DNA from: Denitrobaculum tricleocarpae
GTDB taxonomy: Bacteria; Pseudomonadota; Alphaproteobacteria; Kiloniellales; Kiloniellaceae
Direction of reading: 5' to 3'
Length of the DNA stretch: 64,000 nucleotides
Assembly: GCF_007004665.1 (NCBI RefSeq)
Contig: NZ_ML660053.1
Span: forward strand, 62,001-126,000
The notes beneath the pieces are model-generated. The model was not told the DNA's origin and searched no databases. It saw only the letters and a list, made by a program, of their open reading frames with translations. A program made the translations under genes and the position numbers. The first letter of the stretch is position 1. Each line of letters begins with the position of its first letter. Shown here one piece after another: positions 13,595-23,797 of this stretch.

Positions 13595-14938
13595 CTACTG
13601 GGCCGGAACCGCTTCCGGACGGGAAATGCTGCGCTCCAGAGCTGGATAGGCAATCCCGAGCGTCACAGCGCGCGCCACCATGAAAATCATCAGTGAAAGC
13701 CATAAGCCGTGGTTCCCGAGTGCCGGAACCAGGACGTAACAGGCGAGACCGAAGACCGCCAGCGAGACGACCATTGCATTGCGCATGGCTGCTGTCCGGG
13801 TCGCCCCGATAAAGAGCCCATCCAGAAGAAAGCTCGGTGCTGAGAGAAAAGGTGAGACGATCATCCACGGCAGGAACACGGCAGCGGCTTCGAGAACCTC
13901 CTCGATGTTCGTGAAGAGCCCAATGATCTCCGTCCCGAATACGGCATAGGCAATGGAGATGGCCAGCGTACTTGCGATTGTGAGGTAGGTGGCGGAGCGG
14001 ACAACGCGTTTGAAAGCGGAACGGTCTCTGGCGCCGACCGCGCCACCCCCCAGGATCTCCGCGGCGTGAGCAAAGCCGTCCAGCCCGTGTGACAAAAAGT
14101 GCTGCAGGTTGATCAGGATGGCATTCGCCGCCAAAAGCGCGTCGCTCATTGCGGCGCCCTGGGCGGTAAAGCTGCTGGTTGCCGCAATCAGGCAAAGATT
14201 CCGGATGAAGATATCGCGATTGACCCGGAACAGGGCCAGGAGGCGGTCGCGCCGCAAGATCTCGGGCCAATTCCAGGTGCCGCTCATACGGCGGACCGTG
14301 TGGTATACGATTGCCAACCCAAGAAGAGCGCCCGCAATCTCGGCCAGCAGAGTCGCGGCGGCCACGCCTTCCACGCCCCAACCGAACTCCAGGACAAAGA
14401 CAAGGTCCAGGACGATATTCACGCTGTTGACCATGATTTGCGTTGCCATGGCGGCCCAGGGCCGCTGCAATCCCAGCAGCCAGCCGATAACACCGTACTG
14501 GATCAGGGTGGCCGGTGCGCTCCAGATCCGGATGTCGTAATAGGCTTGCGCATTGGCTGTCACGCCTTCGCTGGCATCGATCAGCGGGAAAACGATTGCC
14601 GAGATGGGGGCTTGCAGCAGGATCAGAATCGCCCCAAGAAGCGCGCCAAGTGCCAGTGGGCGGACCAGGGTCGCCCGTACCTCAATGGGGTCGTCGGCGC
14701 CGTAGGCCTGCGCCGAGAAGCCTGTTGTGCCCATCCGCAGGAACCCGAGGCCCCAGAAGAGGAACGTGAAGATAATCGAGCCAATGGCCACGCCGCCAAT
14801 GAATTGCGGGCCCGGCAGGTGTCCCATCACGGCGGTATCAACCGCGCCCAGAAGCGGGCTCGTCAGATTGGTCAGAATGATCGGCCATGCCAGAGCCCAG
14901 ACCTTACGGGAGGTCTCCGACGCTTTGCTGTTCGACAA
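13595..14938 (-). CDS. MATE-family efflux transporter (DinF/NorM-like)
   Basis: A 447-residue integral membrane protein with about twelve hydrophobic segments in two similar halves. WALAWPIILTNLTSPLLGAVDTAVMGHL is the standard MATE first helix, and GFLRMGTTGFSAQAYGA the following motif. It resembles the DinF branch, which exports drugs or toxic metabolites using an H+ or Na+ gradient. It is transcribed towards the CtrA-box gene and divergent from the DgcN gene, with a diverged 140-bp repeat in the gap upstream. The substrate is unknown. Confidence 0.92.
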   Translation of the reverse strand: MSNSKASETSRKVWALAWPIILTNLTSPLLGAVDTAVMGHLPGPQFIGGVAIGSIIFTFLFWGLGFLRMGTTGFSAQAYGADDPIEVRATLVRPLALGALLGAILILLQAPISAIVFPLIDASEGVTANAQAYYDIRIWSAPATLIQYGVIGWLLGLQRPWAAMATQIMVNSVNIVLDLVFVLEFGWGVEGVAAATLLAEIAGALLGLAIVYHTVRRMSGTWNWPEILRRDRLLALFRVNRDIFIRNLCLIAATSSFTAQGAAMSDALLAANAILINLQHFLSHGLDGFAHAAEILGGGAVGARDRSAFKRVVRSATYLTIASTLAISIAYAVFGTEIIGLFTNIEEVLEAAAVFLPWMIVSPFLSAPSFLLDGLFIGATRTAAMRNAMVVSLAVFGLACYVLVPALGNHGLWLSLMIFMVARAVTLGIAYPALERSISRPEAVPAQ

Positions 14939-15020
14939 GGTGAAGTCCTGTTGGAATGCCCGCGGTCCGGTTCGGCGGCTCAGTATCGCAGTACCGGTGG
15001 CGCGATCCGTCCAGCCGATA

Positions 15021-15160
15021 CTAGAGCGGATTATGATCGGCCGGAACCGTTTTATGGTTTCGCCGGAACCTGTGCATATGATCCGGCTTTTCGAGTCAGA
15101 GCGAGATTCACCCGCATGACAGATCGCCTCTGGCGGTCTTGTCTAAGCTGGATCTGCTCG
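15021..15160. repeat. Diverged, inverted copy of the 140-bp composite element
   Basis: The reverse complement of 15098-15160 aligns with the first hairpin of copies 1 and 2 (shared blocks GAGCAGATCC, GGCGATCTGTC and GGTGAATC). The rest (15021-15097) ends in CTAGAGCGG like the outer edge of the second hairpin. Total length is the same 140 bp. Unlike the other copies it lies in the 5' gap between the divergent MATE and dgcN genes (14939-15307). That gap shows nothing else I can name. Confidence 0.6.
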
Positions 15161-15307
15161 CGTGATCTGAATTTGGCTCAGCATGAAAGCCCGCTTTGGC
15201 TTGCAAAGAGGGGGGTGTTTTCGGCAACATGCCGCGCCACCGGTCTTGGGCGATTTAATCTCCGGCCGGCTGGATCTCTACAACAGCTTACGCGCGGTAT
15301 CTTAAAA

Positions 15308-16306
15308 ATGGACATTCAGCATCCTTACCTCATGTTTCTCGGTGATGCGCCGGACCGGCTTGCGGCCAAAACTGCCCAGGGCGTCGCGGATTGGCGCCCG
15401 GAATGGTGTCTCGGTCAGTTCCGTATGGAGGGATGCAACGCGGATCTCCAGTTGCCCGATATGACCATGGAGGAGGCCGCGGCGGCCGGTGTGAAGACGG
15501 TTATTGTCGGGGTTGCGAACCGTGGCGGAGTCATCTCCAAACCCTGGATCGCCGTTCTGGAACGCGCGCTTGAGCTGGGCATGGATGTCGCTGCCGGTCT
15601 TCACAATCGCCTCAGCGATGTAGCGGTTCTGCGGGAAGTCGCGGCGCATCACGGACGCACGCTCTTCGACGTTCGCCATCCTCAGGAAGACTATGCGGTG
15701 GCGTCAGGCAAAAAACGCTCGGGAAAACGGGTTCTCGCAGTCGGAACGGACTGTTCCGTCGGTAAGATGTACACGACCCTCGCGATGGAAAAGGAAATGC
15801 GCACCCGAGGCTGGAATGCGGATTTCCGGGCGACCGGCCAGACCGGGATTTTCATTGCCGGAAGCGGCGTATCTATTGACGCGGTGGTCGCCGATTTTAT
15901 CTCCGGCGCGGTTGAAGCCATCAGCCCCGAGAATTCGGATGATCATTGGGATCTCATCGAAGGACAGGGCTCTCTCTTCCACGCCTCCTTCGCCGGGGTA
16001 AGCCTCGGTCTTCTGCACGGCGCTCAGGCCGATGCGCTGGTGCTCTGCCACGAGCCGACTCGCCCTCACATGCGCGGTCTGCCTGATTACAAATTGCCCA
16101 GCCTGGAAGACTGCATGTCAGCCAACCTCGCCGCGGCGCACTTGACCAACCCGGATGCCCGCTTTGTCGGAGTGGCGGTCAATACTTTCCACATGTCGCC
16201 TGAAGATGCCGGCAGCTACCTCCAGGAGGTCGAGAGCCGGCTCGGTCTTCCCGCCGTGGACCCCGTGCGCAACGGTGTCGGCCGCATTGTCGACCAGTTG
16301 AATTGA
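15308..16306 (+). CDS. dgcN: DUF1611 protein, DgcN-type D-glutamate N-acetyltransferase
   Basis: A 332-residue DUF1611 protein with a P-loop-like strand LAVGTDCSVGKMYT (about residues 139-152) and LIEGQGSLFHASFAGVSLGLLHGA. In the described DgcN-DgcA route DgcN acetylates D-glutamate to N-acetyl-D-glutamate. I take the ATG at 15308; the open frame extends far upstream but antisense to the MATE gene, so the longer form is not credible. It lies 22 nt before dgcA and the pair is followed by a glutamate-racemase gene, which supports a D-glutamate role. Confidence 0.85.
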   Translation: MDIQHPYLMFLGDAPDRLAAKTAQGVADWRPEWCLGQFRMEGCNADLQLPDMTMEEAAAAGVKTVIVGVANRGGVISKPWIAVLERALELGMDVAAGLHNRLSDVAVLREVAAHHGRTLFDVRHPQEDYAVASGKKRSGKRVLAVGTDCSVGKMYTTLAMEKEMRTRGWNADFRATGQTGIFIAGSGVSIDAVVADFISGAVEAISPENSDDHWDLIEGQGSLFHASFAGVSLGLLHGAQADALVLCHEPTRPHMRGLPDYKLPSLEDCMSANLAAAHLTNPDARFVGVAVNTFHMSPEDAGSYLQEVESRLGLPAVDPVRNGVGRIVDQLN

Positions 16307-16328
16307 AGCCGTTGGGAGTCCTCGATCT

Positions 16329-17321
16329 GTGAGCCTGGGAAATATCCAACTTGAGGTCCGGCAAGAGAGCTGGCCCATCGCCGGCAAGTTCACCATCTCG
16401 CGCGGCAGCAAGACGACGGCGGAGGTTGTGGTTGTCGAATTGACAGCCGGCGGCAAGACCGGGCGCGGCGAGTGCGTGCCCTACGCCCGTTATGGCGAGA
16501 CCATCGAGGGTGTGATCGGCCAGATCGAGAGCCAGCGTGATGCGCTGGCGGCTGGTCTCGACCGGATAGCCCTGCAGAAGGCTTTGCCGCCGGGAGCTGC
16601 GCGAAATGCGCTGGATTGCGCCTTTTGGGATCTGGAGGCCAAGAACAGTGGCAAACGGGTCTGGGAGCTTGCCGGCCTACCGGATCCGGCCCTTGTCAAG
16701 ACGGTCTATACTCTCTCACTGGACACGGCCGAGAACATGGGGGCTGCCGCCAGCCGAAATGCCGATCGTCCGCTGCTTAAACTGAAGCTTGCGGGTCCGG
16801 AGGATCTGGATCGGGTTCGGGCGGTCCGCAAAGCGGCGCCCGGTGCGAAGATTGTCGTGGATGCCAACGAAGGCTGGACGCTGGAACAATACGTCGCCTT
16901 CGCGCCTGAATTGGCCGAAATAGGCGTATCCATGATCGAACAACCGCTTCCGGCAGGCGAAGACGCAGGTCTGGCGGAAGTTGAACGCCCCGTGCCGGTC
17001 TGTGCGGACGAGTCCTGCCACGACGCCTCGACGCTCGCAGGACTGATCGACCGTTATGACATGATCAATATCAAACTAGACAAGACCGGTGGCCTGACCG
17101 AGGCCCTGCGCCTGAAGCAGGCGGCCGAGACGGCGGGTGTGGAGATTATGGTCGGTTGCATGATCGCGACATCTCTCTCAATGGCGCCGGCTATTTTAGT
17201 GGCGCAGAATGTGGCCATCGTCGACGTGGACGGTCCCTTACTGCTTGCGGAAGATCGCCCGGATGGTCTGTTTTTCGACGGCAGTCTGGTCTCGCCGTCC
17301 CAACCGTCGCTTTGGGGCTGA
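16329..17321 (+). CDS. dgcA: Enolase-superfamily N-acetyl-Glu racemase / dipeptide epimerase (DgcA-type)
   Basis: A 330-residue member of the muconate-lactonizing-enzyme subgroup. The N-terminal cap holds FTISRGSKTTAEVVVVEL. The barrel has LKLKLAG (general-base Lys of KxK), VVDANEGW and MIEQPLPAGED (metal Asp and Glu), CADESC (third metal ligand) and MINIKLDKTGG (second Lys). This matches both L-Ala-D/L-Glu epimerases and DgcA; adjacency to the DUF1611 gene favours racemising N-acetyl-Glu. The start is a GTG with GGGAG about 10 nt upstream. Confidence 0.87.
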   Translation: MSLGNIQLEVRQESWPIAGKFTISRGSKTTAEVVVVELTAGGKTGRGECVPYARYGETIEGVIGQIESQRDALAAGLDRIALQKALPPGAARNALDCAFWDLEAKNSGKRVWELAGLPDPALVKTVYTLSLDTAENMGAAASRNADRPLLKLKLAGPEDLDRVRAVRKAAPGAKIVVDANEGWTLEQYVAFAPELAEIGVSMIEQPLPAGEDAGLAEVERPVPVCADESCHDASTLAGLIDRYDMINIKLDKTGGLTEALRLKQAAETAGVEIMVGCMIATSLSMAPAILVAQNVAIVDVDGPLLLAEDRPDGLFFDGSLVSPSQPSLWG

Positions 17322-17372
17322 CGAGCTTCCACCTGGTTCGGGCAGCTGGAAGCTCCAGAGGGGTATCATTCA

Positions 17373-18254
17373 GTGATCGGTGTTTTCGACTCCGGCGATG
17401 GCGGCCTGACGGTGCTCAAAGCTCTGGTTCGGCGCCTGCCGGAACAGGATTTTCTGTATTTGGGTGATCATGCCAGGGCGCCGATCGGCGGGCGGGATCC
17501 GGAAGACATCTATAACCTGACCGTTGCGAACATCGATTACCTCTTTTCGCAGGGATGCCGTCTGGTGCTGCTCGCCTGTAACACGGCGTCCGCTGTGGCC
17601 CTGCGGCGGCTCCAGCAGACTTGGTTGCCGCAGCGCGATACGGAGCTGGGGCAGCCTGGACGGCGGGTGTTGGGAGTGCTTGTGCCGATGGTCGAGGCCA
17701 TCGCTAGGGTACCTTGGAACTCAGCAGGGCAGTCGATCGAGCAACAGGCGAACCCGACCCGATCCCGCGTTGCCATTTTCGCCACGCGCAGGACTGTGGA
17801 GACCGGCTCTTATCCTCTTGAGATCGGGCTTCGGGCGCCAAAGGTAGAGGTCGTTCAGCAGGCCTGTCCCGAGCTGGTTGCACGTATCGAAGCCGGTGCT
17901 TCCCGGGATGAACTTCGGGGAATGGTCGGGCGTTACGTGGAGGCCTTGTTGGCGCAAATGGAGGGCCGCATACCCGATACGGCGGTTTTGGGCTGCACGC
18001 ATTATCCGCTAGTTGCGCCCGCTTTTGCAGGCGCTTTGCCCCAGGGTGTCGAGCTGCTTGACCAACCCGGTCTGGTGGCTGAGAGCCTGGCGGACTATCT
18101 CTCGCGCCATCCTGCATTTGATAAAAAGGGCGGAGCGCAGCACGCGGGACCGCCAGTCCGCCGATTTATCACGACTGGTTCGGCGGAGTATGCCAGTGAG
18201 AAGGCAAGCCTCTTCTTCGGCGCGCCTGTCACATTTGAACACTGCGCGTTCTAA
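17373..18254 (+). CDS. murI: Glutamate racemase
   Basis: A 293-residue Asp/Glu racemase. FDSGDGGLTV opens the chain; the two catalytic cysteines are C69 in LACNTASA and C208 in LGCTHYPLV. It interconverts L- and D-glutamate to supply peptidoglycan. The third residue of the usual FDSG(V/I)GG is Asp. A hydrophilic insertion (about residues 85-125) makes it slightly longer than typical MurI. The start is a GTG after GAGGGG. It lies 51 nt after dgcA, so one cluster both makes and removes D-glutamate. Confidence 0.88.
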   Translation: MIGVFDSGDGGLTVLKALVRRLPEQDFLYLGDHARAPIGGRDPEDIYNLTVANIDYLFSQGCRLVLLACNTASAVALRRLQQTWLPQRDTELGQPGRRVLGVLVPMVEAIARVPWNSAGQSIEQQANPTRSRVAIFATRRTVETGSYPLEIGLRAPKVEVVQQACPELVARIEAGASRDELRGMVGRYVEALLAQMEGRIPDTAVLGCTHYPLVAPAFAGALPQGVELLDQPGLVAESLADYLSRHPAFDKKGGAQHAGPPVRRFITTGSAEYASEKASLFFGAPVTFEHCAF

Positions 18255-18281: not shown

Positions 18282-18602
18282 TTAGCGCCGCCGGCGTCTT
18301 TTCGATCTGACCCGCAAAAGACGTTCGCGCGGATAGGCGGCCACTTCGGAGAGGAGGTTGAGCAGGCTGGGCATGGAGGCTTTGCGCCCTGTGCCTTCGT
18401 AATGCTCGACCAGATTTCCCGCTGCAACCGCAGGATCGTGATCCGGCGCAAGGCTGAGAAGCCAGGCGAAAACGAGCTGTTCGTCCGATGCTTTCATTCG
18501 CCTGTCCCCAGCCGTCATTGCGGCTGCAATAACGAGGGAAGGGTCGTCAAATTTCAGGTTAGCCGTGCGTGTGCGGCCATGAAGGCCCGAGATCTCTGCC
18601 AT
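18282..18602 (-). CDS. Unknown 106-residue protein behind a cobalamin riboswitch
   Basis: A small soluble protein without signal peptide or membrane helix, with a predicted helical middle (EQLVFAWLLSLAP, AVAAGNLVEHYEG) and a strongly basic tail (RVRSKRRRRR). The ATG has an excellent GGGGAGGA ribosome site 4 nt upstream. It is the only gene that can follow the B12 riboswitch, since the next gene (murI) is convergent. I recognise no family. Cobalamin control suggests a role in B12 uptake, assembly, sparing or a B12-independent substitute pathway, but the sequence does not say which. Confidence 0.75.
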   Translation of the reverse strand: MAEISGLHGRTRTANLKFDDPSLVIAAAMTAGDRRMKASDEQLVFAWLLSLAPDHDPAVAAGNLVEHYEGTGRKASMPSLLNLLSEVAAYPRERLLRVRSKRRRRR

Positions 18603-18647
18603 ACAATCCTCCCCGGCACACCCCGTCCGGTCAATGGTTGTTACAGG

Positions 18648-18836
18648 TGTTGGCAGGTCTCCTGGCTCACGGATCCTAGCGTCTCGCCGACCTTCCCAGA
18701 TGAATTCCAGTGGTCTTAACCTGGCGAACGCTCTCCGCTTACAGTTGCGGGGGCAGCTTCGGATTGGTTTTCTCAGGTTTCAGAGAGAAAACAACACCGA
18801 ATTCCCGTTTTAATCCCCAGCGAAGGGGAACCAACA
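18648..18836 (-). promoter_or_regulatory. Cobalamin (B12) riboswitch
   Basis: Read on the minus strand. The B12 box (GCTGCCCCCGCAACTGTAAG, within 18735-18757) is intact. The P1 stem is TGTTGG at the 5' end and CCAACA at the 3' end; CCACTGG, GGGAAGG and the GTGAGCCAGGAGACCTGCC closing segment are all in the expected order. It ends 45 nt before the ATG of the unknown gene at 18602, close enough to mask its ribosome site, so translational control is likely. Adenosylcobalamin binding would switch the gene off. Confidence 0.95.
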
Positions 18837-18880
18837 CAGCGAGCTTCCAGATTACGCTGCATTGCACAAATGTCAATCAA

Positions 18881-19570
18881 TCATGCTTTTCGAAGCAGGT
18901 TGAGACGGCTGGGTGAGGCGAAGCGGTAGGCGCCCTCTTCAAATTCTGCGGCGGATTCAAAGGCGATACGCAGATTGTCACCCTGCGCCTCGATGGCCGG
19001 ACGGCGGCTTTCATCCACCGCGATCATTTCATTCCGGCAGGCTTCGAAGCTTTCGTAACTCAGGGGCGCTTCGTAGCTCAGCTCCCTGTGTTCGCAGACC
19101 CCGGATGTGTTGGCTGCGTTCAGGAGCGCTTCGTAGGCGCTGGCTCGAACATCGGTTTCGTCCTCGATCGGGCGCATCATTTCGAAAAAGGCGCCTTCCG
19201 CCAGGGGTTCCAGGACATAAATCTCACCACCGGACCGCAGAACCCGCAGCGCTTCGCGCAGGGCCGTTGCCTGGTGCTCGACCGGTACATGATGCAGCGA
19301 GTTGAAGAAGACGACCGCGTCGAATATCCCGGCCTCGAAGGGTAGATCCTCTGCCACACCGGATATGTAGTCTTCGTCACCGGCGCCATCGGCGTCGCGG
19401 GCGCGCGCGAGTTGCTTCTCCGATGTGTCCAGACCGGTGACACGCGCACCCTCCCGCGTCATGAAGCGGACCAGTCCGCCGCTGCCGCAGCCGACATCAA
19501 GCACCCGCTGTTCCTTGAGAGGAAGGGTGCCGCGCATCACGGCCGTGTGTTTTCGGGGCGCATGTTTCAT
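18881..19570 (-). CDS. Class I SAM-dependent methyltransferase
   Basis: A 229-residue methyltransferase of the type 11 fold. Motif I is VLDVGCGSGGLVRF, the acidic end of strand 2 is VTGLDTSEKQL, motif II follows in VAEDLPF, and motif IV/V is FFNSLHHVP. It is soluble and small. It lies upstream of the cobalamin riboswitch on the same strand but ends 45 nt before it, so it is not itself under that switch. The substrate is unknown. Confidence 0.85.
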   Translation of the reverse strand: MKHAPRKHTAVMRGTLPLKEQRVLDVGCGSGGLVRFMTREGARVTGLDTSEKQLARARDADGAGDEDYISGVAEDLPFEAGIFDAVVFFNSLHHVPVEHQATALREALRVLRSGGEIYVLEPLAEGAFFEMMRPIEDETDVRASAYEALLNAANTSGVCEHRELSYEAPLSYESFEACRNEMIAVDESRRPAIEAQGDNLRIAFESAAEFEEGAYRFASPSRLNLLRKA

Positions 19571-23638: not shown

Positions 23639-23735
23639 CGGCATGGATCGAGGGCGCCCGCTCTTGATCCCCCGCACGCCCATAGGGCGTTTCCTCCCTA
23701 AACTTGGGCCGTGCAATTGCACGGCCTTTTTTTTT
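23639..23735 (+). ncRNA. Candidate small RNA
   Basis: About 97 nt between a plausible promoter and a perfect rho-independent terminator, in a 401-bp gap (23397-23797) whose flanking genes are both on the minus strand. A CGCCCATAGGGCG hairpin and a single-stranded TTTCCTCCC tract (able to pair with ribosome binding sites) precede the terminator. Neither side shows a plausible protein. The sRNA call rests on promoter and terminator only. Confidence 0.5.
23707..23735 (+). terminator. Rho-independent terminator
   Basis: Perfect 20-bp palindrome GGCCGTGCAATTGCACGGCC followed by nine T on the plus strand. No plus-strand gene lies upstream within 1 kb, which is why a small RNA is proposed. Confidence 0.85.
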
Positions 23736-23797
23736 CGCCTGCTCGGTTCTGCGGCTTTGACCCCCGTTAATCGCGCGCTCTCGGTCAACAGATGACC

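Follow-up and report, generated by a model that had tools for sequence, protein, structure and literature searches.

The window, a stretch of 64,000 nucleotides from Denitrobaculum tricleocarpae, harbours a gene for a 106-residue protein which belongs to a real, recurrent and so far unnamed, probably B12-controlled gene family. Its riboswitch RNA is ordinary while the target is new. Its members recur as targets of cobalamin riboswitches in several families of the Alphaproteobacteria, often without any other gene in the unit, which points towards a component, not yet described, of the way these organisms deal with a lack of B12. Our favoured, albeit tentative, reading is that of a self-contained B12-OFF gene in which a promoter, an adenosylcobalamin riboswitch, a ribosome site and one single ORF would serve the production of a small trans-acting factor adjusting the cell to cobalamin shortage. 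Knowledge of the role of this small protein would show which further measures these bacteria take at low B12. The question lends itself to direct testing, as the unit is small and self-contained and the family exists in two forms, with the riboswitch and without it.

Layout of the riboswitch unit

The elements of the unit and the genes on either side of it are arranged as follows (positions refer to the window):

18881..19570, minus strand: Class I SAM methyltransferase gene (PF08241, 86 bits), upstream of the small ORF and on the same strand
18849..18876, minus strand: promoter-like element between methyltransferase stop and aptamer (TTGACA at 18876-18871, 16 nt, TAATCT at 18854-18849)
18635..18850, minus strand: cobalamin riboswitch aptamer (RF00174, 121.7 bits, complete model)
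18603..18634, minus strand: expression platform, CCGGACGGGGTGTGCCGG, then the Shine-Dalgarno sequence GGAGG at 18612-18608
18282..18602, minus strand: ORF of 106 codons with ATG start, the riboswitch target; predicted acidic helical core and Arg-rich tail
17373..18254, plus strand: Asp/Glu racemase-family gene (PF01177, 36.6 bits), convergent and bounding the unit downstream

The match of the aptamer found by cmscan (E 5.2e-30, gathering score 31.5) covers model positions 1-189, which bears out the preliminary description of the riboswitch as complete in every element; the range of 18282-18836 assigned there, however, ends 14 nt short of the 5' end of the aptamer. The good ribosome site which had been ascribed to the ATG is present as well, with GGAGG located five bases before the start codon, whereas the distance from the aptamer end to the ATG amounts to 32 nt instead of 45 nt. 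At the other end of the unit, 27 nt separate the ORF from the convergent racemase-family gene. This gene is the last of a convergent three-gene run (14099-18254, plus strand) which begins with a 735-residue ORF call, whose start may be placed too far upstream, and continues with an enolase-superfamily gene (MR_MLE); the first two genes look like DgcN and DgcA, which we take to belong to D-glutamate use. Apart from this unit, a sequence at 23671-23742 on the plus strand of the window matches suhB/mmgR (RF00519, 59.9 bits), a family of small RNAs.

Since the TTGACA element fills the 30-nt gap between the methyltransferase stop and the aptamer, riboswitch and small gene probably form a transcription unit of their own; read-through of transcription from the methyltransferase gene into the small gene is possible. 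The -10 element is poor, as TAATCT matches TATAAT at three of six positions only, and a strict promoter scan reported no promoter.

Recurrence of the riboswitch-gene pair and its putative control

We read 66 family members, one per genome and the window included, together with about 1.5 kb of flank. In 38 of them a cobalamin riboswitch above gathering score is located directly upstream of the gene, and in the flank of the other 28 none is found. Three further members lacking a riboswitch (L057-L059) were read late and stand outside the 66. Two candidates, L178 (G210) and L060 (G023), were judged false upon reading and dropped; L152 (G474), located near a contig end, was dropped with its small frame unread, and no riboswitch was found there.

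A profile built from 45 members matched at least 26 of 387 genomes in an even sample of the class, one of these matches (L178) being false. Among the at least 25 true members, 15 carry the riboswitch upstream (G000, G006, G009, G096, G166, G215, G255, G272, G295, G330, G362, G394, G404, G414 and G455), and each listed positive genome yields one family match. The family spans many families of the class. The phylum search of 199 genomes gave at least 13 matches, all within the same class, although this says little on wider spread as the composition of that sample is not given. The genome counts of both searches are lower bounds because 6-24 candidates per genome were scored. Some cobalamin riboswitch occurs in at least 277 of the 387 class genomes. 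As the listed genomes contain one to six each, chance adjacency to one small gene should be rare. The recurrence of the pairing across the class (15 of 25) makes a B12-linked role likely. It thereby speaks for the undescribed B12-related function suggested in the preliminary description, whereas the homologues found without any riboswitch (28 of 66 and the three read late) speak in part against it and imply that the job of the protein is not B12-specific everywhere.

A putative promoter precedes the aptamer in many relatives, too. TTGAC is present before the aptamer in 18 of the 38 riboswitch loci, compared with 4.6% in mononucleotide shuffles; the 38 comprise L080, whose contig starts too near the aptamer for a judgement. 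In family f1, all 13 riboswitch loci have TTGACA with its first base 26-28 nt ahead of the aptamer. In family f112 (L072, L073 and L132-L134) another shared block, GTCAAGTGACGG followed by GTCGnTTTT, replaces TTGACA about 70 nt before the aptamer and is perhaps another promoter or operator.

The distance from the aptamer end to the start codon amounts to 31-46 nt in 34 of the 38 riboswitch loci, the remaining four containing a leader ORF in between. The platform motif CCGGRCGGGGTG..CCGG recurs in other riboswitch loci with variants, part of family f44 having CGGCGGG or CGGTGGG instead. In the window, CGGGG of the platform is complementary to the conserved aptamer loop CCCCG (18752-18748), and we take this pairing for the kissing loop that characterises class I switches. 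The same complementarity is found in 29 of 37 loci and, with GCGGG, in four more, counts for which no control set gives the chance rate; it is missing or incomplete in L030, L071, L076 and L141. Folded alone, the platform of the window is no better than shuffled sequences (z 0.66). Translational repression by adenosylcobalamin fits this anatomy, and B12-OFF control appears well supported by anatomy together with recurrence. The four leader ORFs, 25-29 codons in length, follow the Shine-Dalgarno sequence and precede the small gene in L146, L148, L151 and L177. In the first three, the leader comprises 28-29 codons and its stop overlaps the start codon of the small gene, which is TTG, TTG and ATG, respectively, while in L177 the small ORF starts 4 nt past the stop of a 25-codon leader. 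This proximity of leader stop and small-gene start suggests that the small gene is translated by termination-reinitiation in these four loci.

A tree built from 115 alignment columns of the 66 members, with many unresolved forks, requires four changes of riboswitch state, be they gains or losses, and bootstrap trees require four to six, compared with a mean of 21.4 in shuffles; well-supported branches force two changes only. The states are thus strongly clustered, with near-copies contributing to this. Family f44 contains both forms, in separate groups. These data bear on the possibility that the protein is a general small regulator whose chemistry is not tied to B12 and which was put under riboswitch control in those lineages that need more of it at low B12. 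The 28 members without riboswitch, which occur in varied settings, and the repeated change of state are in line with it. Yet 15 riboswitch-bearing members among the 25 of the class sample are too many for casual capture, and the strong clustering of states argues in the same direction, for which reasons we consider this explanation rather doubtful compared with that of a dedicated trans-acting factor for cobalamin shortage.

The small protein and its genomic neighbours

The closest named relatives of the 106-residue protein are found in an uncultured Kiloniellaceae bacterium (98% identity), Kiloniellaceae being an alphaproteobacterial family, and in Pelagibius sp. (61%). The ORF is under purifying selection. 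Within the genus of the window, four of the six pairs have a dN/dS of 0.03-0.14 and the remaining two a saturated dS; values of 0.03-0.09 are obtained for pairs in genus g4 and of 0.06-0.31 for riboswitch-less pairs in genus g2, all of these ratios being rough since several dS values are high. The four same-genus pairs uphold the initial interpretation of the ORF as a protein gene, against which a dN/dS near 1 would have counted.

AF2 run on 45 sequences gave a mean pLDDT of 80.6 and a pTM of 0.68, with main helices at 24-31, 40-50, 57-70, 78-88 and 92-100 and with loose N-terminus and tail. Besides M1, the residues D20, W47, L51, A60, A61 and A88 are invariant or nearly so in the family alignment. 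The last 18 residues bear a mean net charge of +5.6 in the 38 riboswitch members and of +6.2 in the 28 others, while the rest of the protein averages -4.3 and -5.9, respectively. Hence, the product of about 100 residues is predicted to consist of an acidic five-helix domain and an Arg-rich tail.

The window protein has no match below E 0.05 in Pfam, NCBIfam or PHROGs, and the A1 and A2 members gave stray Pfam matches only (E 0.086 or worse), which agrees with its initial assignment as a small protein of no known family. Searches of the predicted structure returned no convincing fold match. The best hits of Foldseek have E-values of 4.7 and 2.7, and the best hit of VIA-align, to MxiC (Z 5.2, 78 residues, 3.5 Å), is within the noise range which the tool describes; consequently, an enzyme and a transporter are both still compatible with the structure. 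A PDB profile search produced two weak matches, the better one (E 0.0015) to chain C6HR1_4r over 36 positions, which we took for a chance helical match. No annotated plasmid-borne relatives emerged from tblastn of a plasmid collection. Likewise, a full-text literature search, judged by title and start of abstract and with most subscription papers and all supplements beyond its reach, yielded no paper on such a protein.

The genome of the window contains four cobalamin riboswitch matches. A tandem pair (G000:C14:92247-93018, L002; 129.9 and 37.5 bits) precedes a DUF1636 gene followed by that of an ABC ATPase, and another one precedes a CbiM-type gene. That the other riboswitches of this genome precede genes of cobalt or B12 transport type would suit a small protein which acts as a helper of cobalamin or cobalt economy, i.e. 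a chaperone or scavenger holding or passing on corrinoid or cobalt in B12 shortage. Such a helper would also match the usual content of cobalamin regulons, which, according to PMC3766115, comprises B12 synthesis, transport of B12 and cobalt, and B12-independent isozymes. The target, however, shows no sequence match to the families of these regulons (transport, synthesis, isozymes), nor to any corrinoid or metal family, and no corrinoid-binding motif is evident by eye. As members without riboswitch exist as well, we regard a helper function as quite improbable.

The arrangement of neighbouring genes raises the further possibility that the protein assists the adjacent SAM methyltransferase as an accessory subunit or activator. 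In this case an old operon would have been modified in the lineage of the window such that the riboswitch puts partner and activity under B12 control. Indeed, in riboswitch-less members the small gene starts at a distance of -1 to 17 nt from the methyltransferase stop, as measured in 11 of the 13 loci tried, and the riboswitch occupies this very junction in the four loci of the window's genus, 30-55 nt past the methyltransferase stop, and in G044, about 25 nt past it. Strong relatives of the methyltransferase over its full length, at E 1.8e-28 or better, however, occur in no more than 9 of the 28 riboswitch-type genomes searched and in 4 of 8 genomes of the other type, and other members follow different genes: L153, without riboswitch, comes after a DUF3047 gene, and in five riboswitch-less members of family f30 the gene immediately before is glnE, identified by Pfam in L079 and by eye in L081, L181, L182 and L183. 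A role as accessory subunit or activator of the methyltransferase therefore seems still less probable than a helper function. As an obligate partner the enzyme is ruled out by the total of 13 in 36 small-protein genomes, all of which contain weaker generic matches. Its surroundings, where fetched elsewhere (six genomes), gave no lead.

The preliminary description had considered the small protein as the sole target of the riboswitch, with a convergent gene next to it. This holds true for the window but not for some relatives. A rough gene caller, applied to 18 riboswitch loci, places the gene that follows on the opposite strand in ten of them and on the same strand in eight, the latter including a MATE gene in two loci of genus g4 and an IspA-like gene in G394. 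In G414, metE starts 28 nt past the small gene. In this locus (L177, 1129-3238) the riboswitch is followed by the 25-codon leader ORF, the gene of the small protein and metE, which together look like a single operon. MetE is the classical B12-independent isozyme and is B12-controlled. Its family (PF08267) is matched at E 2.3e-30 or better in 40 of the 387 class genomes and at any level in 86. Of the 15 riboswitch-type genomes G414 alone is among these 86, which rules out both a general link to methionine and metE as a general partner. The genome of the window has no metE match and may thus depend on B12 for methionine.

Although leader ORFs precede the small gene in four relatives, the notion that the 106-codon frame itself arose by chance or is a leader ORF, translated merely for the sake of regulation in cis, is most improbable in view of the purifying selection on the protein, its conservation across many families and the convergent gene downstream in the window, which leaves nothing to be regulated in cis.

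Proposed mode of action and comparison with known systems

According to our favoured reading of a self-contained B12-OFF gene, plentiful cobalamin would cause the CCCCG loop of the aptamer to pair with CGGGG of the platform and thereby close the ribosome site, and the small protein would be made when cobalamin is scarce. With less certainty, we suppose the protein to be neither enzyme nor transporter and to bind RNA, the ribosome or a partner protein instead. The basic tail is a weak hint at such binding, and the biochemical function as an RNA-, ribosome- or partner-binding regulator is accordingly weakly inferred from sequence. Members that lack the riboswitch would serve the same purpose under a different control. 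A more far-reaching version, which we deem unlikely, envisages a second, protein-based layer of B12 control. Here, the protein would bind RNA or the ribosome, act as a regulator in trans and be produced solely under scarcity of adenosylcobalamin, and it would relay the signal of the riboswitch to genes without riboswitch, for instance those of B12-dependent enzymes in cells lacking metE.

Compared with the cobalamin riboswitches of RF00174, the RNA of the window is ordinary in that it combines a complete aptamer with a platform immediately before the Shine-Dalgarno sequence, as found in translation-controlling switches; novelty is confined to the target. Rli55 and EutX are riboswitch-controlled RNAs which act in trans. 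They share with the present unit the proposed logic of a B12 riboswitch whose output acts in trans, the output there being an RNA and here a protein without known target. Riboswitch-controlled leader ORFs like those of L146, L148, L151 and L177 have a counterpart in the B12 riboswitches of metE and ppe2 from M. tuberculosis with their upstream ORFs, and termination-reinitiation is treated for ppe2 in PMC11260477. In contrast, the riboswitch class and the target proteins differ there, and the window gene has no leader ORF. With the known cobalamin regulons (PMC3766115), the unit has the regulator in common and, in G414, metE directly downstream of the small gene, whereas its small-protein target fits by sequence none of the groups which these regulons comprise.
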